From: Kozakia baliensis
GTDB taxonomy: Bacteria; Pseudomonadota; Alphaproteobacteria; Acetobacterales; Acetobacteraceae
Assembly (NCBI RefSeq): GCF_001787335.1
Contig: NZ_CP014674.1
Location: 1,902,501 to 1,966,500 of the forward strand
DNA length: 64,000 nucleotides
Direction: 5' to 3'
Position numbers and translations under genes: made by a program
In this document: in pieces, positions 1-15,142 of the stretch
How positions within the stretch are numbered: position 1 is the stretch's first letter
How the letters are laid out: each line of letters opens with the position of its first letter
Notes under the pieces: generated by a model
Told to the model about the DNA's origin: nothing
Seen by the model: only the letters and a program-made list of their open reading frames with translations
Database searches by the model: none

Positions 1-912
1 CTCCGGTTGTTCGACCGGTATGATCTAATTGCCATGCAAGGAACGATCGCCACGATCATACGCCTGATCGGCACGGCTTCTCTATTTTTCGTAGGCGCTT
101 CGGTTTCACGTCTGGCAGGCATCTGGATGCTTGCCGAAGCCGCCGCCTGGACCATGCTATTCGGTTGCGCAATTTTAGAAATGCGCAAGCGTGGGCTTTT
201 GCAAGGTTTCGCCCATCGCTTCTGTGCCACCCTTCCCGACATTCTTACCAATCGTTTCGGCCGGGACCATCAGGGAATTTGGCGTTTCGCCTGGGCGACC
301 AACTTCAATTCGACGCTGTCCCTCACCTTCGGACATGTCGGCACGTTAATTGTCGGAAGCCTGCTCGGCCCGGCGAGCGCAGGCTATTATCGCATCGCCA
401 GCCAAGTTGCAGCGGGCATCGCCAAACCCGTTACCCTTGTGCAATCCACGCTCTATCCAGAAATGGCGCGGATGTGGCGTGAGCAATCCACGAAGCGCCT
501 TTATCGCATGTGCATACAGATCGCTTTAGTCGGCGGGGCGCTTGGCAGCTTGTTGCTGGTCGTCGCCTTTTTCGCCGGACGACCTTTATTGGATTTCATG
601 ACGGGAGATGCCCATTCCCGCGCCCTGCCCGTCATGCTTTGGCTTCTTGCCGCGGAGATCGTGACCGTCTGGGGACTCCCTCTTGAGCCGTTACTTTTTA
701 CGACCCGCAAATCCGGTGCGGCGATCCTGGCACGCACGATGGAGACCATTTTCTTCCTGCCGTTTCTTGTTTTGATGATTCGTTGGTACGGATTGGGCGG
801 CGTCGGCCCCGCCACACTCTGTGCAACGTTGATCTTGATCGGCATTCAACTCGTCATCGTGATCGCCTCGCGTCACGAAACAGCGGCCGACCAGGACGCC
901 GCCACATGTTGA
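1..912 (+). CDS. Polysaccharide/lipid flippase (Wzx/MATE-like), 5' partial
   Basis: The reading frame is open from the first base of the window, so the N-terminal half of the protein is missing. What remains is about 300 residues with several hydrophobic membrane segments, including a glycine- and alanine-rich stretch around LVGGALGSLLLVVAFFAG, and ends with two more membrane spans. The text resembles the C-terminal half of oligosaccharide flippases (polysaccharide biosynthesis protein family), which move undecaprenyl-linked glycans across the inner membrane. The next gene starts inside its stop (ATGTTGA), so both are probably cotranslated. A TTG at base 7 would be a possible start, but a complete flippase should be about 430-500 residues, so truncation by the window is more likely. 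Confidence 0.75.
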   Translation, partial: LRLFDRYDLIAMQGTIATIIRLIGTASLFFVGASVSRLAGIWMLAEAAAWTMLFGCAILEMRKRGLLQGFAHRFCATLPDILTNRFGRDHQGIWRFAWATNFNSTLSLTFGHVGTLIVGSLLGPASAGYYRIASQVAAGIAKPVTLVQSTLYPEMARMWREQSTKRLYRMCIQIALVGGALGSLLLVVAFFAGRPLLDFMTGDAHSRALPVMLWLLAAEIVTVWGLPLEPLLFTTRKSGAAILARTMETIFFLPFLVLMIRWYGLGGVGPATLCATLILIGIQLVIVIASRHETAADQDAATC

Positions 913-2039
913 AAATTGCTTTTCCTTACATCGCTCAACCGCATCAAACGCTGCATTCGCTTCCCATCGCCATGGAAATCGCCTCGCGCCATCCCGAAGC
1001 CGAGGTTCACGTCGCTTGCACAACGAATGCTCACCTCGATTACGCACGCACGCTCGGCTCGCTCTATCCGCAGGCTCGCGCGCGTTACGATCTGCTTAAA
1101 ATGCCCGATTTTCTTCGGCGCAAGATTGAACAGAACGGCCCAGGCGTCGCCGGAAAGCTGGCCAGCCTTTTCCTGAACCGAGATTATTTCTCACGCTTTC
1201 AGGCGATCGTCGTGCCGGAGCGCACATCGCTCTATCTGCGCCGCATGGGCATTCGCAAGCCGCGCATGATTTGGACCCGGCATGGCGCGGGCGACCGGGC
1301 TATCGGCTTTGCGAAAGACGTAAAGGAATTCGATTTCGTTCTACTTTCCGGCCGCAAAGTCGAGGAACGCCTTCTTTCCCAAGGCGCGATCACGCCAGGA
1401 CGGTATTATCGCGGGGCCTACGCCAAGTTCGACATCGTCAGGCGCATGGCGCGCAATCGACCGGCCTTGTTCGAAAATGACAAGCCGATCGTTCTCTACA
1501 ATCCCCATTTTTCAGGAAAATTATCGTCCTGGCCAACGCTCGGCGAAGAAATTCTACAGTATTTCGCCCATCAGGATCGGTATAATCTAATCTTCGCGCC
1601 GCATTACCGGCTTTTCGACAAGCGCCGCCAGGAAGGCGAAGCACTTGCGAACCGTTTTGCGGGTCATTCGAATATTCTTATCGATCCCGGCAGCCCGCGA
1701 AGCATTGATATGACTTACACCATGGCTGCCGATCTCTATATTGGAGACGTCAGCAGCCAGGTTGCGGAGTTTCTCATCCGTCCGCGCCCTTGCCTTTTCC
1801 TCAACGCACATCATGTCGAATGGCAAGAAGATCGTAATTATCGTTTCTGGAAGCTGGGCGATGTTATTGAAAATACCAGCAATCTTGGCGAAACGATTGA
1901 AAATGCATTCACGCACCATAACGCTTTTCTTGAGGCGCAACGTGAATATGTATTAGAAACCTTCGAGTTCCCAAACGATGGTCCGACCGCCCCCGGGGCG
2001 GCCGATGCGATCATCGATTACCTGAAACGAGCGGCATAA
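906..2039 (+). CDS. CDP-glycerol glycerophosphotransferase-like GT-B enzyme
   Basis: About 377 residues starting at the ATG that overlaps the preceding stop. An in-frame start further upstream at 783 would lie deep inside the flippase gene and is less likely. The protein has three signatures of the CDP-glycerol:polyglycerophosphate transferase family: a TRHGAGD segment in the N-terminal half, FAPHYRLF in the C-terminal half, and GDVSSQVAEFL near the end (the family D-x-S-S motif). Family members transfer polyol phosphates from CDP-polyols to a lipid or sugar acceptor at the cytoplasmic face. No signal peptide or strong membrane segment is seen. The stop overlaps the start of the fatty acyl-AMP ligase by one base (TAATG), which suggests a role in the same lipid pathway. 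The acceptor is unknown. Confidence 0.7.
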   Translation: MLKIAFPYIAQPHQTLHSLPIAMEIASRHPEAEVHVACTTNAHLDYARTLGSLYPQARARYDLLKMPDFLRRKIEQNGPGVAGKLASLFLNRDYFSRFQAIVVPERTSLYLRRMGIRKPRMIWTRHGAGDRAIGFAKDVKEFDFVLLSGRKVEERLLSQGAITPGRYYRGAYAKFDIVRRMARNRPALFENDKPIVLYNPHFSGKLSSWPTLGEEILQYFAHQDRYNLIFAPHYRLFDKRRQEGEALANRFAGHSNILIDPGSPRSIDMTYTMAADLYIGDVSSQVAEFLIRPRPCLFLNAHHVEWQEDRNYRFWKLGDVIENTSNLGETIENAFTHHNAFLEAQREYVLETFEFPNDGPTAPGAADAIIDYLKRAA

Positions 2040-3868
2040 TGACGCTCCCTTCTAATTCGTTGGCTTTAGCCATTCATCCCAAACGTGGAGTGCGGCAGAA
2101 TTTGAGCGAGATGCAGAGCAAGGCAGCCGAGACGGCTCAGCCCCTGATCCCTACCCCGAGCGCGTCCGGTCAGAAGCGGCGCTTTGGTGATTTCCCGACT
2201 TTCAGCGCCGCACTTGATTATGCTGCTCAAGGCGCGGCCGGTTTCAACATCTATAACGGCCGCGGGCAACTTCTCGAAGCGCTCCCCTATAGCTATTTGC
2301 GCACGCAAGCATTGGAAACGGCGCGTCGTTTGCTGGGCACTGGCCTTGAACCAGGAGACCGCGTGGCGATCGTTGCGGAAAGCGACGGCGATTTCGCACG
2401 CATTTTCTTCGGCTGCCAATATGCAGGGCTTGTACCGGCACCGCTGCCTTTGCCGATCGCATTCGGCGGCCGTGAAAGCTATATCGGCACCTTGCGCGGC
2501 ATGATCGCCGCAGCAGGCGCGCGCGCCGTGATCGTGCCCGATCTGATCGGTTCTTGGACGGACGAGATCGTTGCCGGATTGGATTTGACGTTCGGTGGCG
2601 CGCCATCCGCATTGATGGCGATGGCCGTTCCCGATCTGAAACTGCCGACCACGGCAACGGAAGACCTCTCTTACCTGCAATTCTCATCCGGCAGCACGCG
2701 CTTTCCGATGGGCGTAGCCGTGACGCAGCAGGCTGGCATGGCGAACGCGCGCGCCATTGCGCGCAATGGTCTGCAAGTGCGCGAAACCGGTGATCGCTGT
2801 GTCTCCTGGTTGCCGCTCTATCATGACATGGGCCTCGTCGGTTTTTTTCTGACGCCGCTGACATGCCAGTTGACGGTCGATTTGCTCCCGACGCGGGAAT
2901 TCGCACGTCGCCCTCATGTGTGGCTGGACCTGATCAGCCGTAACCGTGGCACCATCGCCTATAGCCCCTCGTTCGGCTATGAGCTTTGCGCGCGTCGCCC
3001 TGTTTCCAACGATCTCGATCTGTCCTGCTGGCGAATTGCCGGAATCGGTGGCGATATGATCCGCCACCATATCTTGGAAAACTTTTCGGAACGTTTCGCT
3101 TCCGTCGGTTTCTCGGCGAACGCCTTCGTTGCGTCTTACGGCATGGCCGAGGCAACCTTGGCCATCAGCTTCGCGCCGTTGGACCAGGGCATCAAGACCG
3201 ATACAATCGATCTGCGCCGATTGGAATCGGAAGGCATGGCTCATCCTTCCAACGATCCTTCTCACGCACTGCGCACCTTCGTGCTTTGCGGCGAAGCGCT
3301 ACCGGAACATCGGATCGAAATCCGCGATCCGGAAGGCAATATCCTTTCGGACCGTCATATCGGCATGGTGTATGTGCGTGGGCCAAGCCTCATGTGCGGT
3401 TATTTCGGGCGCGAGCAAGAAACCAACGACGTCCTGGACGCCAAAGGCTGGCTCAATACCGGCGATCTTGGCTACATGCTGGACAGCCAAGTTGTGATCA
3501 CGGGACGCGCCAAGGACCTGATCATCATCAATGGTCGCAATATTTGGCCGCAGGATCTGGAATGGTCCGCCGAAAAGGAAATCGGCAGCCTACGTTCGCG
3601 CGATGTCGCCGTGTTCTCCGTCGATGCCGAAACGGGCGAGAGCGTGGTCGCGCTCGTTCAGTGCCGCGCAACCAACGAAGCGGAACGTGAGCGCCTGCGT
3701 GAGGAAACCGCTAGCCTGTTCCGCCGCCAACATGGCGTGGAGGTCAACGTCATCCTCGTGCCGCCGCACACCCTGCCCCAAACTTCCTCAGGCAAGCTAA
3801 CGCGCGCACGAGCGAAGGCCATGCTACTGGCTGGCCAATTCGAGCCGATAGCAAGCAACGCGGCGTAA
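2039..3868 (+). CDS. Fatty acyl-AMP ligase (FAAL)
   Basis: 609 residues of the ANL adenylating superfamily. The P-loop-like motif QFSSGSTRFPMGV lies near residue 213, the TGDLGY motif near 474, the hinge GRAKDLIIINGRN near 488, and the C-terminal lysine in SSGKLTRAR near 583. The lack of a CoA-binding signature and the segment RNIWPQDLE after the hinge are typical of FAALs, which activate fatty acids as acyl-AMP and pass them to an acyl carrier protein rather than to CoA. The carrier protein and serine palmitoyltransferase follow directly, so its likely job is to load the dedicated carrier with the acyl chain condensed with serine. The first 25 residues are poorly conserved in appearance, and a later ATG at 2111 is possible. 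Confidence 0.85.
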   Translation: MTLPSNSLALAIHPKRGVRQNLSEMQSKAAETAQPLIPTPSASGQKRRFGDFPTFSAALDYAAQGAAGFNIYNGRGQLLEALPYSYLRTQALETARRLLGTGLEPGDRVAIVAESDGDFARIFFGCQYAGLVPAPLPLPIAFGGRESYIGTLRGMIAAAGARAVIVPDLIGSWTDEIVAGLDLTFGGAPSALMAMAVPDLKLPTTATEDLSYLQFSSGSTRFPMGVAVTQQAGMANARAIARNGLQVRETGDRCVSWLPLYHDMGLVGFFLTPLTCQLTVDLLPTREFARRPHVWLDLISRNRGTIAYSPSFGYELCARRPVSNDLDLSCWRIAGIGGDMIRHHILENFSERFASVGFSANAFVASYGMAEATLAISFAPLDQGIKTDTIDLRRLESEGMAHPSNDPSHALRTFVLCGEALPEHRIEIRDPEGNILSDRHIGMVYVRGPSLMCGYFGREQETNDVLDAKGWLNTGDLGYMLDSQVVITGRAKDLIIINGRNIWPQDLEWSAEKEIGSLRSRDVAVFSVDAETGESVVALVQCRATNEAERERLREETASLFRRQHGVEVNVILVPPHTLPQTSSGKLTRARAKAMLLAGQFEPIASNAA

Positions 3869-3875
3869 GAACCTG

Positions 3876-3906
3876 TTCCGGCGGAGGGAACTCTCTTCCG
3901 CTGGAA
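3876..3906 (+). repeat. Hairpin between FAAL and ACP genes
   Basis: A ten-base-pair inverted repeat (TTCCGGCGGA paired with TCCGCTGGAA, one G-T pair) around a loop of about ten bases sits 8 bases after the FAAL stop. There is no run of T after it, so it is not a clear terminator. It could set relative expression of the ligase and the carrier protein, or stabilise the upstream transcript. Confidence 0.35.
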
Positions 3907-4005
3907 TCCGCGCCACAAGAATTTCTAGCCAATCAATGCGTCATGTCGCATAAGCGGCCACACTTGCGTGATGCCACGCTTTCAAAGCTTTAGCGGAGAC
4001 TTCGT

Positions 4006-4263
4006 ATGACGGACACGGTCGAGTCCATCTCCTCAATGATCGTGCAGAAACTGCTCGCCAATCCGAAAGTGCCGCGCGATATCGATGGCGACAGTAAGAT
4101 TGTCGAAGACCTGGCGTTCGATAGCCTCGCCGTCATGAATTTCGTCATGGAGATCGAGGACACGCTCGATGTCTCCGTTCCGCTCGATAAACTCGCCGAT
4201 ATCCGCACCATCCACGACCTTGCAGTCTGCCTTGCCGGACTGAAGAACGGCAACTTTCCATGA
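4006..4263 (+). CDS. Dedicated acyl carrier protein of the sphingolipid module
   Basis: 85 residues with the phosphopantetheine attachment motif F-D-S-L, serine at residue 40, inside an acidic helical protein typical of acyl carrier proteins. A GGAG ribosome site lies about 9 bases before the ATG. It differs clearly from the housekeeping AcpP encoded at 18473-18712 (no DDLGADSLD motif), so it is a specialised carrier. Its position between the acyl-AMP ligase and serine palmitoyltransferase, with an ATGA overlap to the latter, suggests that it delivers the acyl chain to that enzyme, as described for the sphingolipid carrier protein of other alphaproteobacteria. Confidence 0.85.
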   Translation: MTDTVESISSMIVQKLLANPKVPRDIDGDSKIVEDLAFDSLAVMNFVMEIEDTLDVSVPLDKLADIRTIHDLAVCLAGLKNGNFP

Positions 4264-5453
4264 TCGATATCTTCGCGAAATATGACGGGCTGAAAGCGGC
4301 CATTGCAGGATTGACGCAGAACACGCCGCGCAGCCCGTTCGACGTCGTGATCGAACGCCCGCTGTCGGCGACGGTTGGGCTGATCGAAGGACGCGAGACG
4401 CTTCTATTCGGCACCAATAATTATCTCGGTCTCAGCCAATCCAAGGCAGCGGCCGAGGCGGCGATCGCCACCGTGCGCGAAGAAGGCGTCGGGACGACCG
4501 GCTCACGCATCGCGAACGGCACTTACGCTTTGCACCGTCGCCTGGAACGACGCTTAGCGGAAGTGTTCCGCCGCCGTCATTGCATGATCTTCTCGACCGG
4601 CTATCAGGCGAATTTAGGCGCGATCTCGGCTCTGGCCGGGAAAGACGACATTTTGCTGCTGGATGCGGACAGTCATGCCAGCATTTACGATGGCAGCCGC
4701 CTTTCCCATGCGCAGGTAATTCGTTTCCGCCATAACGATCCGTCCGATCTGGACCGCCGTTTGGGCCGGCTCAAGGACCATCCGGGCGCCAAGCTGATCG
4801 TCGTCGAGGGCATCTATTCCATGACCGGCAACGTCGCGCCGATGCGCGAATTTGCCGAAGTGAAGAAGAAGCACGGCGCTTATCTGCTGGCGGACGAGGC
4901 GCATTCTTTCGGCGTCATGGGCGAACACGGGCGCGGCGTGGCCGAACAGGACGGATGCGAGGAGGATATCGATTTCGTCGTTGGCACCTTCTCCAAAAGT
5001 CTCGGCACGGTCGGCGGTTATTGCGTCTCCAATCTGGATGGGATGGAACTTATCCGCCTGTGCTCGCGGCCTTACATGTTCACGGCATCCCTGCCCCCGG
5101 AAATCATCGCCTCTACCTTGGCGGCGCTGGATGAAATGCAGGCACGCCCGGAACTGCGCCACCGGTTGCAGGAAAATGCCAAGCGCCTCAATCATGGCCT
5201 GCATGGCTTGGGCCTCAATGCCAGCCCGCATGTCAGCCCGGTCGTGGCGGTGACGCTCGACGCCGTCGATCAGGCTGTTGCGTTCTGGAATCGCCTGCTT
5301 GAACTGGGCGTTTATGTCAATCTTTCCCTGCCACCCGCAACGCCGGATGAGCGTCCTCTGTTGCGTTGCTCGGTAATGGCCGCGCATTCGCCGCAGGAAA
5401 TCGACCGCGCCGTAGAGGTATTCGGGCAAGTCGCCAAGGAATTGGCGGCGTAA
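4260..5453 (+). CDS. spt: Serine palmitoyltransferase (alpha-oxoamine synthase)
   Basis: 397 residues, a PLP-dependent alpha-oxoamine synthase. The PLP lysine is residue 246 in GTFSKSLGTVGGYC, which has the serine palmitoyltransferase form rather than the KBL or BioF form; the motif LADEAHSFGVMGEHGRG carries the PLP-contacting aspartate and histidine. The enzyme condenses L-serine with an acyl thioester to give 3-ketosphinganine, the first step of sphingolipid synthesis, in the cytoplasm. The start overlaps the carrier protein stop (ATGA). Length matches the soluble bacterial homodimer. BioF is the main alternative, but the lysine motif and the FAAL-ACP context argue for sphingolipids. Confidence 0.88.
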   Translation: MIDIFAKYDGLKAAIAGLTQNTPRSPFDVVIERPLSATVGLIEGRETLLFGTNNYLGLSQSKAAAEAAIATVREEGVGTTGSRIANGTYALHRRLERRLAEVFRRRHCMIFSTGYQANLGAISALAGKDDILLLDADSHASIYDGSRLSHAQVIRFRHNDPSDLDRRLGRLKDHPGAKLIVVEGIYSMTGNVAPMREFAEVKKKHGAYLLADEAHSFGVMGEHGRGVAEQDGCEEDIDFVVGTFSKSLGTVGGYCVSNLDGMELIRLCSRPYMFTASLPPEIIASTLAALDEMQARPELRHRLQENAKRLNHGLHGLGLNASPHVSPVVAVTLDAVDQAVAFWNRLLELGVYVNLSLPPATPDERPLLRCSVMAAHSPQEIDRAVEVFGQVAKELAA

Positions 5454-6395
5454 TTAAACGGCTGGCGGGCGCAATACGGAACGTGCCCGCCATAGCAGCC
5501 AAGGCAAGCATAACAGCGGGTGTTTCGCCTCGAACGGCGAAAGATTGAGCTTCAAGCCGTTATGCCGCTCAATTTTCCAAGCCAAATAAGACGCGCCGCC
5601 TTCGAAAGTGAAAGCGCCTTTGAGAAGGCGCGCAACGTTGAGCCAGCGGCCACGACGCGCGATTTTCTCCCAGCGCTTTCTAGCGCGTGCGGATTGACAC
5701 GATGTGAGAATCGGTCGCAGCGCCTCGCCTTCGCGCGTGAATTTCAGCCCGGCAGCCTCCCAGGCCAAGGGAAGCAACGCAGCGAAGCGTTCCTCTTGTC
5801 CGGCCATAAGCGCTTTGCCACGCCCCGGTTTTTCAACGCGCAATTCAGCAGCGTAGGTGGCAGAGAAAAGTGCGCGCCACCAAGCAATCGGTATGGCGGA
5901 GCCCGTTCCTAAAAACGCGGCCCAACCTGCCGCAGTGAGGACGCTTTGACGCACCGCACCGAGCAAACGGTCGGCGGCAGCAGAATCTCTGACCCAGGCC
6001 AACCGGACGGGCTGGCAGAACCGCGCCCAAATCGTGGTGTCCAGCGCGCGCGGCGAAGTCAACGCCTCGAATTGCGCGATCCCGATGAAAGCCACCTTGG
6101 CGCGCAACGTCACGCCATCGATGGCCTGTTCAACATAACGCACATTAGGCGGCAGGAACCGATTCGCCATCCGCTCCAGAGGTGAAGCCGGCCAATCCGA
6201 AAGCGTTTCCAAGACGATATAAAAATCGAGAATACCGCTCGGGTCGAACTCCCGTAGTCCGGAGCCATAGAACAACACGCCCAACGGCCGATGCGCCCCA
6301 ACCATTCCTTCAACGAAACGCGTCACGCGCGGATCGGTTGGCGTGGTCAGTTCCGCAATCAGAGCGCGGCAGAGCGGTTCTTGCGGATCAATCAT
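5454..6395 (-). CDS. Tam41-like CTP-dependent nucleotidyltransferase
   Basis: 313 residues from an ATG that overlaps the stop of the upstream lipid kinase; a GTG at 6419 is an alternative with a longer overlap. The segment LFYGSGLREF (residues 41-50), followed by ILDFYIVLE, has the pattern Y-G-S-G ... D-F of the mitochondrial CDP-diacylglycerol synthase Tam41/Mmp37, a member of the nucleotidyltransferase fold. Further on, the order NVRYVE, LRAKVAFIG and FCQPVRLA resembles the iKYGVvs and KPV regions of that family. It could convert a phosphorylated lipid and CTP to a CDP-lipid. Being cotranscribed with a lipid kinase fits this. The family assignment rests on motif memory, and the substrate is inferred. 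Confidence 0.6.
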   Translation of the reverse strand: MIDPQEPLCRALIAELTTPTDPRVTRFVEGMVGAHRPLGVLFYGSGLREFDPSGILDFYIVLETLSDWPASPLERMANRFLPPNVRYVEQAIDGVTLRAKVAFIGIAQFEALTSPRALDTTIWARFCQPVRLAWVRDSAAADRLLGAVRQSVLTAAGWAAFLGTGSAIPIAWWRALFSATYAAELRVEKPGRGKALMAGQEERFAALLPLAWEAAGLKFTREGEALRPILTSCQSARARKRWEKIARRGRWLNVARLLKGAFTFEGGASYLAWKIERHNGLKLNLSPFEAKHPLLCLPWLLWRARSVLRPPAV

Positions 6396-7419
6396 GCAAA
6401 AAGGTGAATCTCGGGCCACGAGAGAGCTTGATAACGCCCCCTTCGCCTGGGGAAAGCACCTCGCCGTCCAGCACGAAATCGCTCGGTGAATGCAACCACA
6501 TATCCTGCACGCAACCGCTGGCGTAATCAGGGCTTTGCCGCAGCCAATTCTCGGCGCGCCCTCGCAACAGAGACCATGTCGCCCGTACCAGATGAGTAGG
6601 ATGGTCTTTTACGTTAAGAAAATGCAGCCCGTCCTGCGCGTCGCTCTGCTTGCGCCAAAACGGCCAGATGCCACGATTGAGATGATGCAACGCCGTGGCG
6701 ATGAAAAGGAAGCTGCGCCCGTCCGCAATCACACCTTCAGCGGTTTCGAGCCGCGCCGGATCGCCGTTCAGCCAGGTTTCGCGCTGGCGACGCCGCGCCA
6801 AGCTGCCGAACGTGGCCAACAATGTGACGCCAACCGCCAGATCGTGGGGCGCATAACGCAGAACATGCGGCGAATGTGCAATGGCGATCGCCCGCGCATA
6901 ACCCGTGCTGCCGTGGAACATGCCTAGCCGGGACGGTTGGGACTCGTCCGGCCAGGAGACTTGAAGCGGGGCGCGTATGATGAAGCCCAGGCGCTCCGTC
7001 TCCTCCATCAACTGCTTCAATGCCGCCAGGCCCCGTCGCTGGAACCCGACATCCTTGGCAATAAGATTGGTGTTACCCGAAGGAAAAATCGCGATACGCG
7101 GCAAGGCGTCAGCTGGATAAGCATGGCATATCCGCGTCAACACATCGCTGACGGTGCCGTCTCCACCATTAATGGCGATGAGGGGCGTTTTCCGAGCCGC
7201 CAGACGGCGTATCATCGCCTCCATTTCCTCATGCGACTGAGGCTGGAGAAAACCGTCGCCAAGCCATGCGGAGGCCTGTCGTACGAACGCCTTACCGTCA
7301 CGCCGATTGCGTCGGCTACGGGGATTGTGAATCAGGGCGAGGCGCACAGGAGCATCATTTATGTTATCGAGATCTCGTTCTTTATGACGGGACGAAAGGC
7401 CCGCCTTGCGCGGCGCCAT
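6388..7419 (-). CDS. Diacylglycerol/ceramide-kinase family lipid kinase
   Basis: 343 residues from ATG 7419 (a GTG at 7431 is also open). The catalytic motif INGGDGTV lies at residues 83-90 and FPSGNTN near residue 113, both diagnostic for the diacylglycerol kinase catalytic domain, which uses ATP to phosphorylate a lipid alcohol. The N-terminal ALIHNPRSRR segment fits the family start. It lies next to serine palmitoyltransferase and divides the locus into two divergent halves, so ceramide or a sphingoid base is a likely substrate; a ceramide kinase of this family is known from Caulobacter. Diacylglycerol or another lipid cannot be excluded. The downstream Tam41-like gene overlaps it by 8 bases. 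Confidence 0.8.
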   Translation of the reverse strand: MAPRKAGLSSRHKERDLDNINDAPVRLALIHNPRSRRNRRDGKAFVRQASAWLGDGFLQPQSHEEMEAMIRRLAARKTPLIAINGGDGTVSDVLTRICHAYPADALPRIAIFPSGNTNLIAKDVGFQRRGLAALKQLMEETERLGFIIRAPLQVSWPDESQPSRLGMFHGSTGYARAIAIAHSPHVLRYAPHDLAVGVTLLATFGSLARRRQRETWLNGDPARLETAEGVIADGRSFLFIATALHHLNRGIWPFWRKQSDAQDGLHFLNVKDHPTHLVRATWSLLRGRAENWLRQSPDYASGCVQDMWLHSPSDFVLDGEVLSPGEGGVIKLSRGPRFTFLHD

Positions 7420-7496
7420 AGCATGACTCACACTGCGCGACTAGAAACGGCCGTTTATTTCCTATCGGGCGCGCCGCAACGGCACTATCGAGGCTT

Positions 7497-8396
7497 ATGT
7501 CCATCCCTGCTCCGAACTCCGTCACGATTGCCCATCTTTCAGACGTCCACTTGCCGCCGCCAGCCGCAATTCCTCTGCGGGAACTGCGCAATAAGCGCCT
7601 GCTGAGCTTGATGTCGTGGAAAAAACACCGGCAACATCGCCATCTCGGCCGCCTGTCCGATGCGGTCATTGCCGATATCGCCGCCCATGGCCCCGATATG
7701 ATTGCCAATTCCGGAGATCTCACCAATTTCGGCCTTCCGGAAGAATTCGTGGCCGGAGCAGCGTGGCTTTCTTCCCTCCCCGCCCCAACCTGTATCGTGC
7801 CGGGCAATCATGATTGCATGGTGGCGCAGCCTTGGGCGGAAGGTTTGGCGCATTGGTCGCTTTGGATGACGGATCGGGGAAAGGATTTCCCTTATTGCCG
7901 CCAAATCGGCGATGTCGTGATAATCGGCATCAATAGCGGCATCCCCAGCCCACCTTTCATGGCTTATGGCCGCGTCGGGCGCGCGCAAACGCGCCGCCTG
8001 CGCGATCTCCTTCACCGCACGCGAGGATTGTGCCGCGTGGTGATGATCCATCACCCGCCCCGCCCCGGCCTCGTGGTGCGCCGCAAATCGCTGCTCGATC
8101 AACGATATGTCGCCGCCGCCCTGCGCGAAGCGGGAGCGGAGATCGTGCTGCACGGTCATTCTCACGACTCGACGATCACAACCATTCCGCAATCCGATAT
8201 CCCGCTTTTGGGCATCGCCTCCGCATCTCTGCGTTCCCTCAAACCCTGGCGCCAGGCTGCGTGGAACGAATTGACGATCCATCGGGAAGAAAACGCTTGG
8301 CGCATTGCCCTCGCCCAGCATCGTATTCTTGACGAAGGAGGCAGCGAGGTTGCTCAACGCCGCGTCTGGCAACGCCCTTGCGAGCAAGCAGCATGA
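7497..8396 (+). CDS. Calcineurin-like metallophosphoesterase
   Basis: 299 residues with the full metal-binding set of the calcineurin-like family: LSDVHL (D16, H18), SGDLTN (near 73), GNHD (103-106), HHPP (about 184) and GHSH (about 219). A GAGG ribosome site precedes the ATG. It lacks a signal peptide, so it acts in the cytoplasm or at the inner membrane. Family members include CpdA and the UDP-diacylglucosamine hydrolases LpxH, LpxI-replacing LpxG and relatives. As the first gene of a chain with lipid-transport and lipid-modifying genes it may cleave a phosphoanhydride or phosphomonoester on a lipid intermediate. That role is inferred from context. It is divergent from the lipid kinase gene. 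Confidence 0.8.
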   Translation: MSIPAPNSVTIAHLSDVHLPPPAAIPLRELRNKRLLSLMSWKKHRQHRHLGRLSDAVIADIAAHGPDMIANSGDLTNFGLPEEFVAGAAWLSSLPAPTCIVPGNHDCMVAQPWAEGLAHWSLWMTDRGKDFPYCRQIGDVVIIGINSGIPSPPFMAYGRVGRAQTRRLRDLLHRTRGLCRVVMIHHPPRPGLVVRRKSLLDQRYVAAALREAGAEIVLHGHSHDSTITTIPQSDIPLLGIASASLRSLKPWRQAAWNELTIHREENAWRIALAQHRILDEGGSEVAQRRVWQRPCEQAA

Positions 8397-9586
8397 AAAG
8401 GCTACGCTTCGGTACTCTGGACCGTTATCTTTTCATGCAAGTGCTGCCGCCTTTCCTCGTCTCCTTAAGCGCGGTTCTGGCGGCCCTGCTTCTAGAACGT
8501 CTGCTGGTGCTATTCGACGATCTCGCGGCCGAAGGCAGTTCTCTGGCGACATTTCTCGGGTTGCTGACGGATTTGCTCCCGCATTATCTCGGCCTAGCAC
8601 TCCCGGCTGCGCTTTGCGTGAGCGTATTCCTGATCACGCGGCGCATGAGCGACAATAACGAGATCGACGCTTTGATGGCGAGCGGCGTTTCGCTCCTGCG
8701 TATCGCCCGCCCCTTCATGGCGATGGGGCTGCTGCTCGGTGCAGGCAGCGTGCTGCTCTACGGCTATATTCAGCCTTTCGCCCGTTACGATTTCCGTGAA
8801 GGATTTTATTTCGCCGCGCATAGTGGTTGGGCGCCCCACCTTCAGGCCGGCATGTTCGCCGCCACCTCGAACGACGCCATGCTGACGGCCGACGGAGTCA
8901 GCCATAACGGCACGGTGCTGCATCACGTTTTCATTCGGGAGAGGGAGCATAACGGCACGGTGCGTCTCGTCACCGCGCAACGTGGTTTGCTCACCATTGC
9001 CCCCTCCCAAAAGAAAACGCGGCTCGATCTGTGGGACGGCATTATCCTTACCGATCCGAAAAAACCGGGCGGGCGCATTACACAAACTCATTTCACCCAT
9101 AGTATGCGCGTGATCGATCAAAGCCATCAGGACAATGATTTTCGTGTACGCGGCGCGGATGCAAGAGAATTGACCCTGTTCGAACTCTACGAATTTCTAG
9201 ATCATCCCGAACGCGCGCACGCTGGCGGTGTGCCCAACCAAAACATCACCCGCCCGAATCTGCATGCGGAGCTGGACTTCCGGCTAGCACGCGCCTTGGC
9301 CATTCCCTTCATCCCCGCTCTTGCCGTCGCGCTCGCAATCGGCGCGAAACGGCAGCGCCCGATCATCGGGCTTATCGCGCTGGCGCTGATTTTGGTCGGT
9401 TTCGACCATACGCTGCAATTCGGTCAGGGAATCGTAGCGACCGGTAAGATGCGCGGCTGGTTCGCCATCGGATTGCCGCTCCTCATTTTCTGCGTGGTAT
9501 GCTTGGCTTCCATCCTCCGGCGCTCCCGCGGTTCCTGGCGTCGGCGCAAGCTGATCCGCCCGGCCCATTGGAAGCGCGCAGCATGA
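8393..9586 (+). CDS. lptF: LptF-family permease (YjgP/YjgQ)
   Basis: 397 residues starting at the ATG that overlaps the metallophosphatase stop (ATGA). The order is membrane segments 1-3, a beta-rich periplasmic part of about 130 residues, then membrane segments 4-6, the layout of LptF/LptG. The N-terminal LDRYLFMQVLPPF and the segment DNNEIDALMASGVSLLRI match the coupling-helix region that docks the ATPase LptB. LptF and LptG form the inner-membrane part of the lipopolysaccharide extractor. The neighbours here are lipid-synthesis genes, not the usual lptD-surA-pdxA group, so this may be a paralog for another lipid. Whether it is the only lptF of the genome cannot be seen. Confidence 0.82.
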   Translation: MKRLRFGTLDRYLFMQVLPPFLVSLSAVLAALLLERLLVLFDDLAAEGSSLATFLGLLTDLLPHYLGLALPAALCVSVFLITRRMSDNNEIDALMASGVSLLRIARPFMAMGLLLGAGSVLLYGYIQPFARYDFREGFYFAAHSGWAPHLQAGMFAATSNDAMLTADGVSHNGTVLHHVFIREREHNGTVRLVTAQRGLLTIAPSQKKTRLDLWDGIILTDPKKPGGRITQTHFTHSMRVIDQSHQDNDFRVRGADARELTLFELYEFLDHPERAHAGGVPNQNITRPNLHAELDFRLARALAIPFIPALAVALAIGAKRQRPIIGLIALALILVGFDHTLQFGQGIVATGKMRGWFAIGLPLLIFCVVCLASILRRSRGSWRRRKLIRPAHWKRAA

Positions 9587-10677
9587 AACACGACAAGCGA
9601 ATGCCGCGCTCCGTGTTGCTCGCGCATATGTCGCGCAGCTTGTTGATGCGTGTGGCGTTGTGCGGCTTCATTCTGGTCGCGCTGATGGAAATCCTTGGCT
9701 TGCTGGAGCAGACGACGCCAATCCTCGCGCGCCATCTGGGCCTACGCGGCGTCTTGACCTACGCGATACTGCACCTTCCGACCTTAATGATCCAAGCGCT
9801 TCCTCTCAGCGTGATGATCGGCGCGATTTTTCTCCTCGCGCAAATGACATTGAACAGCGAAATCGCCAGTTTACGGGCAGCGGGACTTTCAACGGTCTCA
9901 CTCTTCGGATTGTTGCTCCCCGCCATTCTTGGGCTGAGTTTCGGCGGGATCGCCATGAACGAACTCGTCGCCCCGCGCACGGAACTGGCGCTGGCCCGCT
10001 GGTGGAACGTCACCGACCCGACGCCGGAGAAAACCGCCCATAGCTTCTGGTTCCACAACGGCGGCGATATCGTACATGTGAATGCGTTCGGCGGTGGCGG
10101 GACGACACTTTACGATATGGGGGTCTACCGACGGGACGCGGCAGGCACTTTGATCGGCTCCATCGAAGCGGAACGAGCCGAGTATCGCCCCGATGGCTGG
10201 CACGCAACGCAGCTCCGAACGCTGACATTGCAGGAAAACCGCGTCGTCAGCGCCACGCAAGCTGAAGCCGTCATTCTGCCGCCCAAGGTCAAGCCGGACC
10301 GGATTTTGCGACTTGCGCAGTCTTATCCAGTGCTCTCGACCTTCGAAATCGAAGCGATTTTGCACCAGGGCGCGCCATCGAGTTTGCCGAAAGCCACTTA
10401 CCGAATGGCGATGTTCTCCCCATATGTGTTACCGATCAGCCTCTGCGCGATGCTTCTCCTTGCGCTGCCAGTAGTCTATATCCCACCGCGCACAGGCACG
10501 CGCAGCCCGATCCCAATCTATGCATTGGCCGCCGGGTTTGCGTTTGTCGTTGTGCATGGCTTGATTCAGGCGCTGGGTAATGCGGGAACTTTGCCTGCGC
10601 TATTAGCCACCATCGCCGCGCCGCTCCTGGCGATTTTGCTGGGATTGGCGTGGCTGTTGAAAATGGAAGAGCGATGA
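9583..10677 (+). CDS. lptG: LptG-family permease (YjgP/YjgQ)
   Basis: 364 residues from the ATG overlapping the LptF-like stop. Six membrane segments flank a periplasmic beta domain. The segment QMTLNSEIASLRAAGLST is the coupling region, with the conserved E-x-x-x-L-R-A-x-G. The partner gene directly upstream gives the expected heterodimer. LptB (ATPase) and LptC (periplasmic partner) are not encoded in this operon, so they must be supplied elsewhere. The downstream hydroxylase gene overlaps by four bases. As for LptF, the lipid carried may be lipopolysaccharide or, given the neighbours, a sphingolipid. Confidence 0.82.
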   Translation: MKHDKRMPRSVLLAHMSRSLLMRVALCGFILVALMEILGLLEQTTPILARHLGLRGVLTYAILHLPTLMIQALPLSVMIGAIFLLAQMTLNSEIASLRAAGLSTVSLFGLLLPAILGLSFGGIAMNELVAPRTELALARWWNVTDPTPEKTAHSFWFHNGGDIVHVNAFGGGGTTLYDMGVYRRDAAGTLIGSIEAERAEYRPDGWHATQLRTLTLQENRVVSATQAEAVILPPKVKPDRILRLAQSYPVLSTFEIEAILHQGAPSSLPKATYRMAMFSPYVLPISLCAMLLLALPVVYIPPRTGTRSPIPIYALAAGFAFVVVHGLIQALGNAGTLPALLATIAAPLLAILLGLAWLLKMEER

Positions 10678-11504
10678 ACGACGACTCTAATTCCGGCGCC
10701 GCGGACAGTTTCTGGCACGCTTTCTGGCAGGCATGGAAAAATCAAGGGTCTTTACGGACTGGCCGCAGCTTCGATCTTGGCAAGATGAGCCTTCCACAGC
10801 TTTGGATGGCCTATCTGACTTACCCGACGATCCTGCTATATTTCGCGCTGATCGTCGTGGCGTCGGGTTTGGGTGTGTATTTTCGTCCCACCTTCTCACA
10901 GTTCATCGTTCCAACTCTTGCCGTCGTCGCGATCTATCCCTTGGCGTGGTACGCCATCCATCGTTTCATCCTCCACGGGCGCTGGCTTTATCGGAATCCC
11001 CTGACCGCTAGCTTATGGAAGCGGGTCCATTTCGATCATCATCAGGACCCACACCTCCTGGATGTTCTGTTCGGCTCTCCGGCCAACACGATTCCCACCA
11101 TCGCCATCATTGTCATGCCGATCGGCTATCTGATCGGGGGATGGAGCAGTTCCTTCATCGCCCTTGCGGTCGGGCTGGTCATGACCTGCATTTACGAATT
11201 TTTCCACTGCATCCAGCATCTTGCCTATAAGCCGCGCTGGCAGTGGGTCGCTAAGATCAAGCAATTGCATGTTCTGCATCATTTTCATGATGAGGACGGC
11301 AACTACGGCATCACGAATTACGTTCCCGATCGGCTATTCGGCAGCTTCTATAAGAACGCCCGCGCCCGCGCCCGCAGCGCCCATGTGTTCGATCTGGGTT
11401 ACGATATCGAGGAAGCGAAGCGCTATCCGTGGGTCATGCGCCTGACCGGCGCACCGCCGCGTGAGCGGCCCGATGGCGCGAACGGGTCCAAACGCTCGGC
11501 ATGA
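10674..11504 (+). CDS. Fatty acid hydroxylase / sterol desaturase family membrane enzyme
   Basis: 276 residues with four or so membrane segments and the histidine clusters of the non-haem diiron hydroxylase superfamily: HRFILH (near residue 95), HFDHHQDPH (near 120), HCIQH (near 179) and LHVLHHFHDEDGN (near 200). These histidines bind two iron ions for O2-dependent hydroxylation of a lipid chain, as in fungal Scs7 and plant FAH. The start ATG overlaps the LptG-like stop. In a sphingolipid context the natural guess is 2-hydroxylation of the N-acyl chain or hydroxylation of the sphingoid base; acetic acid bacteria are known for 2-hydroxy fatty acids in ceramide. The exact position is not readable from sequence. 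Confidence 0.85.
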   Translation: MNDDSNSGAADSFWHAFWQAWKNQGSLRTGRSFDLGKMSLPQLWMAYLTYPTILLYFALIVVASGLGVYFRPTFSQFIVPTLAVVAIYPLAWYAIHRFILHGRWLYRNPLTASLWKRVHFDHHQDPHLLDVLFGSPANTIPTIAIIVMPIGYLIGGWSSSFIALAVGLVMTCIYEFFHCIQHLAYKPRWQWVAKIKQLHVLHHFHDEDGNYGITNYVPDRLFGSFYKNARARARSAHVFDLGYDIEEAKRYPWVMRLTGAPPRERPDGANGSKRSA

Positions 11505-12253
11505 CTCTTCCCACTCTGGTGCTGGCAGGTTCGCGCGATGGCGCGCAGGACCCGCTGGCCCGTCTCGGTGGGGTTGCGCATAAAGCGCTCCTGCCCGTCG
11601 TCGGCACGCCGATGATATTGCGTGTGCTCAATACGTTACGCGCCACACCCGGCCTGGGGCCGATGGCCGTCAGCATCGAAAATCCCGACGCCATCCGTCC
11701 CCTAATCGGCGACGCCATGATCTTGCCCACGGCCAAAGGGCCGAGCGGTAGCGTGGCCATCGCGCTCGAACGCCTGGGCGCGCCACTTTTGGTCACGACG
11801 GCAGACCATCCCCTGCTCCGGACAGAATGGATCGCTCAATTTCTCATGGGGGCGGAAGGCAAATGCGATCTCGCCGTCGCCGTCGCCAACCGTACCGTTA
11901 TCGAGCGCGATGTGCCAGGCACGAAGCGCACCTATATTCGCTTGCGCGACCTCCAATTCTCCGGCTGTAACTTGTTTTGGCTCGGCACCATCAAGGCACG
12001 CCGCGTGGTGGAGCTATGGCAAAAGCTGGAACGGGACCGGAAAAAACCTTGGCGTATGGCCGCTACCTTAGGTTGGGGCATCTTATTGCGCGCCGTAACG
12101 GGCAGACTAACGCGCGATGCTCTTTATCGGCGCATCGAAAAACTGACCGGCGCAAAAGTGCTTCTGATCGAACTGAGTGACGGCCGCGCGGCTGTTGACG
12201 TCGATAAACCAAGCGATCTGGCCTTGGTGGAAAAAATCCTCACACATTCATGA
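11501..12253 (+). CDS. MobA-like nucleotidyltransferase (NTP_transf_3)
   Basis: 250 residues. The start LVLAGSRDGAQDPLARLGGVAHKALLPVVG has the order A-G-S-R ... H-K-A-L of the MobA-like NTP transferase fold, where the lysine holds the triphosphate, and the acidic metal site follows in TTADHPLL (near 105). The C-terminal half contains a basic, partly amphipathic stretch. Enzymes of this type make a CDP- or GDP-activated small molecule. Because of the ATGA overlaps with the hydroxylase before it and the glycosyltransferase after it, I infer that it activates a head-group precursor for the lipid. The nucleotide and substrate are unknown. A molybdenum cofactor role is unlikely from context. Confidence 0.7.
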   Translation: MTLPTLVLAGSRDGAQDPLARLGGVAHKALLPVVGTPMILRVLNTLRATPGLGPMAVSIENPDAIRPLIGDAMILPTAKGPSGSVAIALERLGAPLLVTTADHPLLRTEWIAQFLMGAEGKCDLAVAVANRTVIERDVPGTKRTYIRLRDLQFSGCNLFWLGTIKARRVVELWQKLERDRKKPWRMAATLGWGILLRAVTGRLTRDALYRRIEKLTGAKVLLIELSDGRAAVDVDKPSDLALVEKILTHS

Positions 12254-13320
12254 AAATCGCTTACGTCATCAATTCGCTCGAAGGCGGTGGCGCGGCTTTG
12301 CCAGTTCCCGCCGTGACCAAAGTCATGCGCGACGCCGGGCATGACGTCACAATTCTGGCGCTGACCCGACGTGATGGACGCGCGTTAGGGTCAATGCGCG
12401 AAGCGGGCCTGACAGTTCATGTGCGCGAGGGCAACAAACGCGATCATCTCTCAGCATTGCGTTGGCTGGACCAAGAAATCGCGCAACTGCGCCCCACACA
12501 TATCTGGACTTCCTTGACGCGCGCCACGCTTCTTGGCCAATTAGTCGGCCTGAAGCGGGCCATTCCTGTCGTTAGTTGGCAGCATTCCGCGCGCCTCAAA
12601 CCCGCCAACGCACGCCTGCTTCGCCTCATGCGCAATCGATCCAAACTATGGATCGCCGACTCAGCTTGCGTGGAAGAAGAAACGCGGCGCAAACTCGGCC
12701 TCAAACCAGACCAACTAACAAACTGGCCGATTTTTCGAGCCGATCCCACCATCCCTGTCGCTGCCCCCTGGCAACCGGGCGAACCTGTGCAAATCGGTAC
12801 TTTGGGGCGCCTCCATCCGGTCAAAGGCTACGATACGCTTTGCGAGGCCGTTAGCCTGCTTAAAGCGATACCGAACCTTCCGCCTTTCATCGTGCATATC
12901 GCCGGTGAAGGCGAAGAACGCGCTCGGTTGGAAGAAAAAATTGCGCGGGAAAGCCTGCCGATCGTGCTGGATGGCTATACCGTCGAGCCTGTTCCGTTTC
13001 TGGAAAAACTTCATCTCTATACGCAGCCCTCTTTATGGGAGGGCCTGTGCTTAGCTGCGCACGAAGCCATGCTGTGCGGACTGCCGATCGTCGCCACAAA
13101 GGCCGGGGAAATTCCCTATACTGTTACGCCGGAGTTCGGCCGTATCGTACCGCCGCAAGATCCTGAACGGTTGGCGCAGGCATTGGCCGACATGCTGCGG
13201 CATCCAGAGAAGTTGACTGAGATGGGACAATGCGCGCGGCAACGCGTTCTGTCCCGTTTCAGCGCGGAAATGTTCGACCGCCGTGGATTGGAGATATTAC
13301 TTCGCGTCGAAGCTCTCTAA
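12250..13320 (+). CDS. Glycosyltransferase family 4 (GT-B)
   Basis: 356 residues with the start KIAYVINSLEGGGA, typical of GT4 enzymes, and the C-terminal domain containing GTLGRLHPVKGYD and the E-x7-E type motif EGLCLAAHEAMLCG (near residue 263) that binds the sugar nucleotide. It transfers a sugar from a nucleotide donor to a lipid or glycan acceptor on the cytoplasmic face. It is the last gene of the six-gene overlapping chain, and its 3' end overlaps by 24 bases the end of the convergent small membrane gene. Within this locus it could add a sugar to the sphingolipid head group; the acceptor is an inference. Confidence 0.85.
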   Translation: MKIAYVINSLEGGGAALPVPAVTKVMRDAGHDVTILALTRRDGRALGSMREAGLTVHVREGNKRDHLSALRWLDQEIAQLRPTHIWTSLTRATLLGQLVGLKRAIPVVSWQHSARLKPANARLLRLMRNRSKLWIADSACVEEETRRKLGLKPDQLTNWPIFRADPTIPVAAPWQPGEPVQIGTLGRLHPVKGYDTLCEAVSLLKAIPNLPPFIVHIAGEGEERARLEEKIARESLPIVLDGYTVEPVPFLEKLHLYTQPSLWEGLCLAAHEAMLCGLPIVATKAGEIPYTVTPEFGRIVPPQDPERLAQALADMLRHPEKLTEMGQCARQRVLSRFSAEMFDRRGLEILLRVEAL

Positions 13321-13623: not shown

Positions 13624-13736
13624 ACGCTGTCCTCCAAAATCTTTTCTAACAAAACATGTCTTTACTAACAGGAAAGTATGAAAAGTTAAAAACGAAGAGA
13701 GGCGACAAACCAGCCTTTTTGCGGCAAAATATGGTT

Positions 13737-14231
13737 ATGTCTCTTTCCCTGCCGGAAAATCAGCTTGCCATTCGGCGTGCGGCACTGGGTCTTTGCCAAA
13801 GCATGGCATGGGCGCCGATCAACGAATTCAGCCTGCCCGCCGCCGGCCGCCGCGCCGATATCATGGCGCTTCGGCCCGATCATGGGTTCGTCTGTATCGA
13901 AGTCAAATCCGGCCCACGCGATTTTCTAACCGACCGTAAATGGCCCGAATATCGCGCTTGGTGCGATAGGCTATTCTTCGCCGTGGACGACGCTTTTCCC
14001 CTCGACCTTCTGCCAGAAGATGTCGGCGTCATCGTCGCCGGCCTGCGTGACGTGCCGCTCGGCATCCTGCCGGAATGCGTCATCCTGCGTGACAGCCCGG
14101 AGCAGAAACTTGCCCCGGCGCGACGTAGAACGTTATCGCATCTGTTCGGACATACCGCCGCCACCCGATTGATGGCGCTGGAAGACCCGGCCATCACCGC
14201 TTCGTTGCGCGCTGCGCAACGTGTGGAATAA
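13737..14231 (+). CDS. mmcB: MmcB family DNA repair protein
   Basis: 164 residues from the ATG at 13737 (an ATG at 13731 is nearly equivalent). The core GRRADIMALRPDHGFVCIEVKSG, DFLTDRKWPEYRAWCDRLFFAV and FPLDLLPEDVGVIVA is the signature of MmcB, an alphaproteobacterial protein of the PD-(D/E)XK nuclease-like fold linked to mitomycin C damage repair in Caulobacter. The E-x-K of the fold is visible in IEVKS. A monofunctional gene, followed after ten bases by the inositol monophosphatase family gene. The N-terminal extension to 13656 shows no conserved sequence. Confidence 0.85.
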   Translation: MSLSLPENQLAIRRAALGLCQSMAWAPINEFSLPAAGRRADIMALRPDHGFVCIEVKSGPRDFLTDRKWPEYRAWCDRLFFAVDDAFPLDLLPEDVGVIVAGLRDVPLGILPECVILRDSPEQKLAPARRRTLSHLFGHTAATRLMALEDPAITASLRAAQRVE

Positions 14232-14241
14232 GGAACATTGC

Positions 14242-15036
14242 ATGACTGATCCCCGTCTTATTGCTCAGCGTCTCGAAGTCGCGCGTTCCGTGGTGCATGA
14301 CGCCGCGGCGCTTGCCATGGCGATGCGTCCGCCGCCGGGCGGTCCGACGGGTACGATCAAGGGAATGCAGGATTACCTGACCGAGGCCGACGGCGCGGTG
14401 GAGAAACTCATTTCCAACCGTATGCAGGCGCTTTACCCCGAAGACGGCTTCATGGGCGAGGAAGGCGGCAAGCACCGTCAAGGCGCGTTGACCTGGGTGG
14501 TCGATCCGATCGACGGCACCTCGAATTACGCTCGCGGGCGTGACCGCTGGTGCGTTTCCCTCGGACTGATGGACGGCGATGTTCCCGTTGCGGGCGTTTT
14601 GCATGCGCCCGCATTGGGAGAAGTCTATACCGCGCAACGCGGGCATGGCGCTTTCCTCAACGGCAAGCCGATCAAGGCTTCCCCAGTGTCCGATACCCGC
14701 ACCGCCATGGTGGAAATGGGTTGGAGCGCACGCGTGACGACGGAAACTTACACCGAACGCTTCTCGGCCTTTATGGCACTGGGCGTCATGCCGCGCTCGG
14801 GCGGTTCCGGCGCATTGGCGCTGGCGGATGTCGCAACCGGTCGTCTGGACGCTTATCTTGAGATGGTGATCAATCTTTGGGATGTCGCCGCCGCGCTGGT
14901 TTTGCTGCATGAAGCAGGCGCGAAAGTCTCCCCCTTCCTGCAAAATGGCGGGCTGACCGGAGGCGCTACGATTTTCGCCGCAGCTCCAGGCGTGGCCGCA
15001 CCTTTGGCGGAAGCGGCGCAGGTATCTTTTTCCTGA
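14242..15036 (+). CDS. Inositol monophosphatase family protein
   Basis: 264 residues from an ATG with AAGGAA about 8 bases upstream. The two metal-binding motifs of the family are present: GEEGG (near residue 73) and WVVDPIDGTSNYARG (near 90); the C-terminal motif LWDVAAALVLLHEAG holds the third aspartate. Enzymes of this Mg-dependent fold hydrolyse inositol phosphate, fructose bisphosphate, PAP or histidinol phosphate. The DPIDGT and WDVAA forms fit SuhB/IMPase or histidinol phosphatase. Substrate cannot be fixed from sequence, and the neighbours do not decide it. Confidence 0.85.
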   Translation: MTDPRLIAQRLEVARSVVHDAAALAMAMRPPPGGPTGTIKGMQDYLTEADGAVEKLISNRMQALYPEDGFMGEEGGKHRQGALTWVVDPIDGTSNYARGRDRWCVSLGLMDGDVPVAGVLHAPALGEVYTAQRGHGAFLNGKPIKASPVSDTRTAMVEMGWSARVTTETYTERFSAFMALGVMPRSGGSGALALADVATGRLDAYLEMVINLWDVAAALVLLHEAGAKVSPFLQNGGLTGGATIFAAAPGVAAPLAEAAQVSFS

Positions 15037-15142
15037 TCCGCCTCTTTCGCCGCCGGGGCGAACCGGTCCATCATCCCGCCATATTCCAACGGCAGGAATG
15101 GCTTTCGCCCTGCATCACTGTTCTGACCGAGGCTCTTCTTTC

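Follow-up and report, generated by a model that had tools for sequence, protein, structure and literature searches.

The closest described system to the sphingolipid locus of Kozakia baliensis treated here is the phosphosphingolipid cluster of Caulobacter crescentus. This cluster, CC_1168–CC_1152, is annotated as aasR, cerR, acpR, spt, cpgC, cpgB, cpgA, lptF2/G2, cerS, CC_1153, and cpgD (PMC11324152). According to PMC9386255, AasR loads AcpR, and Spt uses the loaded AcpR. The kinase CpgB is reported to phosphorylate ceramide (PMC10331486), and mutants of the kinase and of CC_1161 lose ceramide phosphoglycerate (CPG) (PMC11324152). The genes for CpgC, CpgA, and CpgD are described as required for CPG or ceramide diphosphoglycerate (CPG2) (PMC12275187, PMC11324152), and CC_1159 and CC_1152 are named as needed for CPG2 (PMC11324152). 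The Caulobacter counterparts of the genes below are tied in this way to CPG by experiment (PMC11324152, PMC10331486, PMC12275187). Spt and the ceramide synthase bCerS are placed in the cytoplasm, and CerR in the periplasm (PMC11087976). The ceramide part of the pathway is already in print for an acetic acid bacterium, Gluconobacter oxydans, with GOX2056–GOX2058 (spt, acpR, aasR) and aca GOX2417 (PMC9386255).

The window, which is the whole stretch of 64,000 nucleotides analyzed here (G000:C1:1902501–1966500, where C1 is contig NZ_CP014674.1 of the 3.5-Mb K. baliensis genome), contains the locus at its positions 1–13,320. The locus belongs to the same kind of system as the published Caulobacter cluster, of which it is a variant. 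With a probability of roughly 0.7, it makes and exports a phosphorylated sphingolipid. Its genes lie in the following order:

1–912, forward strand: MOP/Polysacc_synt_3 flippase, C-terminal part, candidate counterpart of CC_1166 (PF13440, 27.9 bits, profile positions 175–261 of 293).
783–2039 (first ATG at about 906), forward strand: CDP-glycerol glycerophosphotransferase-like enzyme, accessory (PF04464, 30.9 bits, cut-off 22.1).
2039–3868, forward strand: fatty acyl-AMP ligase of the AasR type (acyl-AcpR synthetase) (NF006624, 898.6 bits, cut-off 600).
4006–4263, forward strand: acyl carrier protein of the AcpR type (PF00550, 39.3 bits; DSL motif).
4260–5453, forward strand: serine palmitoyltransferase (NF047599, 625.2 bits, cut-off 500; SKSLG lysine motif).
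5454–6419, reverse strand: Tam41-fold nucleotidyltransferase, proposed ceramide-1-phosphate cytidylyltransferase, counterpart of CpgC/CC_1161 by position (AlphaFold2 model and YGS...LDFY motif).
6388–7431, reverse strand: DAGK_cat lipid kinase, proposed ceramide kinase, counterpart of CpgB/CC_1160 by position (PF00781, 48.2 bits; GGDGT motif).
7497–8396, forward strand: calcineurin-like phosphoesterase (metallophosphoesterase), possible counterpart of CC_1158 (PF00149, 53.3 bits).
8378–9586, forward strand: LptF-type permease, second copy, LptF2-like (PF03739, 179 bits).
9499–10677, forward strand: LptG-type permease, second copy, LptG2-like (PF03739, 199.5 bits).
10650–11504, forward strand: member of the fatty acid hydroxylase superfamily, putative sphingoid base or acyl-chain hydroxylase (PF04116, 71.7 bits; histidine boxes).
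11501–12253, forward strand: MobA-like nucleotidyltransferase, best counterpart CC_1153 (CofC-like) by gene order (PF12804, 53.3 bits; NTP_transf_3).
12250–13320, forward strand: GT4 glycosyltransferase, accessory (PF00534, 91.4 bits).

An initial annotation of this stretch had given the same open reading frames, gene order, and tight overlaps, and re-reading the sequence bore them out. Pfam or NCBIfam matches back its calls of the ligase, acyl carrier protein, serine palmitoyltransferase, kinase, hydroxylase, MobA-like enzyme, glycosyltransferase, CDP-glycerol-transferase-like enzyme, and LptF/LptG pair. Its gene list was incomplete, as the metallophosphoesterase gene at 7497–8396, between the kinase and LptF, had been overlooked. 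The serine palmitoyltransferase exceeds the cut-off of NCBIfam SerpalmtaseBetaP (625 bits against 500) and stays below that of SerpalmtaseAlphaP (447 against 670). Two LptF/LptG pairs are present in the genome, the other one at C1:626729–628949. The NCBIfam scores of the window pair, which alone was scored, are below the cut-offs (LptF, 179.7 against 230; LptG, 201.9 against 240).

The window genes can be mapped to CC_1165, CC_1163, CC_1162, CC_1161, CC_1160, probably CC_1158, CC_1156, CC_1155, and CC_1153. This mapping is positional, made through the gene order of relatives and the annotations of PMC11324152. The genes for AasR, AcpR, Spt, the CpgC-like and CpgB-like enzymes, the phosphoesterase, LptF2/G2, and the CC_1153-like enzyme keep the same relative order as in Caulobacter. 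The aasR-acpR-spt set and the second LptF/LptG pair are present, and a CerS homologue is found elsewhere in the genome. The DAGK_cat and Tam41-fold genes adjoin spt as the CpgB-like and CpgC-like genes do, judged from families and position. In contrast to the Caulobacter cluster, CerS is unlinked, and the profiles and the motif described below revealed neither an orthologue of CerR or CpgA nor a CpgD candidate in the K. baliensis genome. The fatty acid hydroxylase, the PF04464 transferase, and the GT4 enzyme are extra.

The following pathway is a prediction in all its activities, substrates, and product. The AasR-type ligase would put a fatty acid on the AcpR-type acyl carrier protein, and the serine palmitoyltransferase would join the bound acyl group with serine to form 3-ketosphinganine. 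A short-chain dehydrogenase (SDR; C1:1573292–1574104), encoded divergently from the ceramide synthase gene, probably reduces 3-ketosphinganine in the place of CerR, and the unlinked CerS would carry out N-acylation. The kinase is predicted to convert ceramide to ceramide-1-phosphate, from which the Tam41-fold enzyme could form CDP-ceramide with CTP. A further transferase would attach the head group from CDP-ceramide. A role in supplying or finishing the head group is probable for the MobA/CofC-like enzyme and the phosphoesterase, the former possibly acting by a CofC-like activation. The flippase and the second LptF/LptG pair may carry the product outward. The pathway is supported because the gene order agrees with that of the Caulobacter cluster, where mutants of the kinase and CC_1161 are reported to lose CPG (PMC11324152). 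The initial annotation had proposed a single pathway from serine to an exported ceramide. What remains of this proposal is one sphingolipid pathway whose head group is probably phosphorylated, together with the second LptF/LptG pair. A complete pathway from serine is unsupported because the reductase and the ceramide synthase are outside the locus.

The neighborhood, whose conservation had been chosen beforehand as a refutation test of this proposal, is kept in relatives. Spt was searched at E ≤ 1e-80 in 200 genomes of the family; 64 were positive, and the surroundings were taken from 40 of them. The Tam41-like gene and the kinase gene are both near spt in 28 of these 40 loci, most of which continue with the phosphoesterase, LptF, LptG, and the nucleotidyltransferase. 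The other 12 include loci on short contigs and loci with the ceramide part alone. In one genome, G065, the rest of the block is about 21 kb away from spt. Across the class, 42 of 385 alphaproteobacterial genomes contain the Tam41-like gene. A wider scan of contigs detected at least 584 relatives, and its best 80 loci, which come from Dongia, Sphingomonas, Sphingobium, Kordiimonas, Burkholderiales, and Nitrospirales among others, include no Caulobacter locus. Its recurrence in the family and in the class marks the block as more than a chance association. In complete relatives, the order is faal-cerR-acp-spt, tamL-kin-cdpT, and mpe-lptF-lptG-cerS-ntp.

The set pooled from these searches contains 140 loci, 128 of them with a Tam41-like gene. 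They were chosen by spt or the Tam41-like gene, are non-independent and unequal in length, and include at least two records twice (L118/L213 and L114/L195). Among the 128 loci, the kinase is seen in 107, spt in 103, LptF in 103, CerS in 71, CerR in 59, the nucleotidyltransferase in 59, the phosphoesterase in 58, a CpgA-like gene in 31, PF04464 in 18, and GT4 in 16. The phosphoesterase and the nucleotidyltransferase travel together. When the Tam41-like loci are limited to the 103 that reach 15 kb or more, both genes occur in 43, neither in 45, and a single one in 15. The low counts of GT4 and PF04464 make both look accessory and make the glycosylated ceramide suggested in the initial annotation a weak choice for the main product. 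The GT4 frame does overlap the end of the nucleotidyltransferase gene, and Caulobacter is reported to make glycosphingolipids under phosphate limitation (PMC11324152). Still, a product made mainly by the GT4 enzyme, which would leave the kinase and Tam41-like genes unexplained, is quite improbable when GT4 is so much rarer in these loci than the kinase.

Some of these loci differ in their composition. Two Nitrospirales records from metagenome-assembled genomes, L171 and L188, which are outside Proteobacteria, have the Tam41-like, kinase, CpgA-like, phosphoesterase, LptFG, CerS, nucleotidyltransferase, and hydroxylase genes together, and no spt match within 20.9 kb. L054 and L069, of the genus g29, keep the kinase, Tam41-like, hydroxylase, and nucleotidyltransferase genes, and the phosphoesterase and LptF/LptG are absent at that place. 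A family whose representative matches DUF2141 (L191:8238–8876 and relatives) occurs close to the cluster in 46 of the loci used for clustering; it is unlabeled in the acetic-acid-type loci L034–L054.

The assignment of the CTP-using step depends on the fold of the protein encoded at 5454–6419. Alignments A1, of the Tam41-like family, and A2 each contain 20 of 28 sequences, and A6 is a more diverse Tam41-like alignment. By sequence, the likeness to Tam41 is weak. A phmmer search of the PDB gave no Tam41 match, and the best PDB match of the A1 profile is another nucleotidyltransferase (E 0.015). For the A6 profile, the best PDB match is Tam41 (E 0.016); the YGS...DF motif, a lysine, and an RF..PV segment are in register, with the motif in a separate stretch of negative score. 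The AlphaFold2 model, made with 20 family members, has a mean pLDDT of 90.2, and the five best PDB chains in Foldseek are all Tam41. VIA-align gave Z 17.6 for 7ecd (226 residues aligned, root-mean-square deviation 2.9), 16.1 for 6ig4, and 15.7 for 6ig2, with 218–226 residues aligned. The next fold is that of an aminoglycoside nucleotidyltransferase (Z 8.9, 111 residues aligned). The mitochondrial CDP-diacylglycerol synthase Tam41 (6ig2, 6ig4) and bacterial Tam41 (7ecd) share the two-domain fold and the YGS...DF motif with the window enzyme, while the identity in the structure alignment is 12–13% and the proposed substrate is ceramide-1-phosphate. The Tam41-like call of the initial annotation is therein upheld in structure and not in Pfam family: PF09139, the Tam41 Pfam family, matches neither the 20 A1 members nor any protein of the K. 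baliensis genome at E ≤ 10, and therefore the enzyme is named Tam41-fold and not a Tam41 member.

As reported previously, CC_1161 carries a CDP-diacylglycerol synthase domain and might form an NDP-activated ceramide (PMC11324152). The idea of CDP-ceramide is hence already in print, and what is added here is structural: the modeled Tam41 fold supports a step from ceramide-1-phosphate to CDP-ceramide. The published suggestion that enzymes of the CpgC type give an NDP-activated ceramide thereby receives structural support. Besides the Pfam result, three observations weigh against the reading. The correspondence with CpgC depends on gene order and on the published remark on the CDP-diacylglycerol synthase domain. 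In 17 of the 103 loci of at least 15 kb, mostly from Sphingobium, the Tam41-like gene has no kinase match nearby. No obvious transferase using CDP-ceramide is among the 10 representatives, including DUF2141, HIT-like, flippase, and desaturase proteins, that were scanned from 26 neighbor-family clusters.

The matches of the kinase profile to YegS and DgkB in the PDB, together with that of the model to Tam41, could suggest that the two enzymes act on diacylglycerol and phosphatidic acid to give CDP-diacylglycerol, with the sphingolipid genes as mere neighbors. Such a role is very unlikely, as the pair stays near spt across distant genomes, CpgB is reported to phosphorylate ceramide (PMC10331486), and the kinase and CC_1161 mutants are reported to lose CPG (PMC11324152).

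The initial annotation had found no ceramide synthase or 3-ketosphinganine reductase of the CerR type in the window. In the rest of the genome, a CerS homologue is present as an open reading frame at C1:1572029–1573294, unlinked and 330 kb from the window (317.6 bits at C1:1572044–1573195). The CerS profile finds at least one homologue in all 42 genomes tested. The CerR profile divides these genomes: 17 have matches of at least 238 bits, and in the other 25 a match either stays at or below 111 bits or is missing at E ≤ 1e-15. In K. baliensis, where the best match has 71 bits, this profile gave no CerR orthologue. A tree was built from 30 CerR rows, selected among the available loci, and 18 weak matches; the 30 rows form one group (support 99/98), and the two weak matches of K. 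baliensis fall outside it.

A TGxxxGxG motif together with a catalytic N-S-Y-K set is the hallmark of classical SDRs. The gene at C1:1573292–1574104, on the opposite strand and with its open frame abutting that of the CerS gene, encodes such a protein (PF00106, 123.7 bits), and its catalytic N123, S151, Y164, and K168 are invariant in 24 of 24 sequences. This SDR is seen at 208 bits or more in 24 of the 25 CerR-less genomes, and no SDR match exceeds 149 bits in the 17 CerR genomes. It divergently adjoins CerS in 23 of its 24 genomes. The CerS proteins of these 24 genomes group in a single clade (support 100/100) in a tree whose 36 CerR-side rows were chosen from the loci at hand. In the 200-genome sample of the family, the SDR (E ≤ 1e-40) is found in 42 of the 64 Spt genomes and in five of the 136 others (Fisher p 1.9e-21, which overstates the evidence as the genomes are related). 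It is absent from the other 22 Spt genomes: CerR is present in 14, G021 has none, and seven are known from fetched spt loci at most; three of these seven (G097, G181, and G186) show no CerR in the fetched locus. Based on the gene pairing and the exclusion with CerR, the SDR probably replaces CerR as the 3-ketosphinganine reductase.

Several facts speak against this replacement. SDRs are numerous and versatile. In G122, the exception among the 24 genomes, the SDR is on a different contig from CerS. The SDR of G021, which is CerR-less, reaches no more than 137.9 bits; it lies 3 to 5 kb from the spt and CerS genes of that genome, whose CerS is outside the SDR-associated clade. The five genomes with the SDR and no Spt at E ≤ 1e-80 include one, G055, with a weaker 261-bit Spt match. 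In Gluconobacter, the unlinked GOX1849 is named as the reductase homologue (PMC9386255), whereas in K. baliensis the CerR-like paralogues are outside CerR and the SDR beside CerS is proposed. The reductase could alternatively be sought in the NDUFA9-like paralogue at C1:766449, which is the top match to the CerR profile; the GOX1849 named for Gluconobacter is an unlinked dehydrogenase/epimerase. This paralogue clusters with proteins of genomes in which a strong CerR is also present (e.g., G467, G459, and G274), apart from the 30 CerR rows, and the other weak match is HpnA (474 bits). Reduction by the NDUFA9-like protein is unlikely, if less so than the other alternatives considered here.

The second CerS proteins of G356 and G101 are outside the SDR-associated clade. 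In G356, a CerR genome, the second CerS is convergent with a 142.8-bit SDR (G356:C6:11634–13556, L329). The CerS/SDR pairing may have arisen more than once.

It can be speculated that two ceramide routes exist in one family. One would use CerR, which is reported to be periplasmic and to act after acylation in Caulobacter. The other, in acetic-acid-type genera, would use a cytoplasmic SDR with a diverged CerS and reduce before acylation as in eukaryotes, with ceramide then converted to CDP-ceramide and provided with a head group that is not diphosphoglycerate. The chance of this whole scheme is put slightly short of even. If it holds, the ketosphinganine reductase that is missing from acetic-acid-type bacteria has a concrete candidate in the SDR, and the order of steps is predicted to differ from Caulobacter. 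Among the literature matches listed, no title or abstract opening describes CDP-ceramide, Tam41 in Caulobacter, or the pairing of an SDR with CerS in acetic acid bacteria.

The head group might also differ from that of Caulobacter. In relatives, a CDP-alcohol transferase occupies the position of CpgA. In K. baliensis, alignment A5 detects no CpgA homologue at E ≤ 0.001; of the two PF01066 genes in the genome, one has a distant match of 18.6 bits to the A5 profile. Weak matches of such size are expected from distant superfamily members. The CpgD-like pattern Thr-x-Asn-x-x-Thr/Ser is absent from the nine NTP_transf_3 genes read, of 10 in the genome, in a motif-based search made with no CpgD sequence as query. 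Since neither a CpgA homologue nor a CpgD candidate was found, the Caulobacter end product is unlikely. A product identical to CPG2 would agree with the presence of AasR, AcpR, Spt, the kinase, the CpgC-like enzyme, LptFG, and the CC_1153-like nucleotidyltransferase. It would also call for CC_1159 and CC_1152, as reported for Caulobacter (PMC11324152), and is on this account quite unlikely. The natural lack of a CpgA homologue, and apparently of CpgD, makes K. baliensis a simpler system for finding the first head-group transferase.

Two genes of the locus were considered for these missing functions and rejected. The nucleotidyltransferase is not taken as CpgD: in relatives it adjoins CerS, in most loci showing both, at the place where CC_1153 does, and it has no CpgD CTP pattern. 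CpgD, a CTP:phosphoglycerate cytidylyltransferase (PMC13228409), is likewise a nucleotidyltransferase in the same kind of pathway, while the window enzyme does not have the spacing Thr88-x-Asn90-x-x-Thr93 reported for CpgD (PMC13228409). Its AlphaFold2 model (pLDDT 95.2) has the hypothetical transferase 2dpw as closest PDB entry (Z 25.8), with GlmU, IspD, and TarI at about Z 18–20, and CofC is not among the best 50 matches. CC_1153 is described as CofC-like (PMC11324152), and CofC is reported to activate 3-phosphoglycerate in the synthesis of 3PG-F420 (PMC8764529). The PF04464 gene is not a general stand-in for CpgA: in the 103 loci of at least 15 kb, PF04464 occurs without a CpgA-like gene in 13 and with it in three, while 23 have the CpgA-like gene alone and 64 neither.

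MobA-like genes that score alike (98.3 bits) are found on C1 (L002:1470–2087, G000:C1:1887500), beside FdhD, and on C2 (G000:C2:135389), possibly as part of a duplicated segment.

Exactly 5000 N end at the start of the window. The 5′ part of the flippase gene is lost there, and therefore the genes in that stretch are unseen. A partial 23S rRNA gene lies beyond the N; L002:10652–16500, just upstream of window position 1, covers both. The 1752-amino-acid open reading frame upstream is rejected as an artefact of the 5000-base N stretch beside the 23S rRNA gene. In several relatives, the contig begins or ends about 3.8–3.9 kb upstream of spt, as though an rRNA operon were there too. After the cluster, at 13656–16033, are MmcB-like, inositol monophosphatase, and Ysc84 genes, which still adjoin it in several close relatives.

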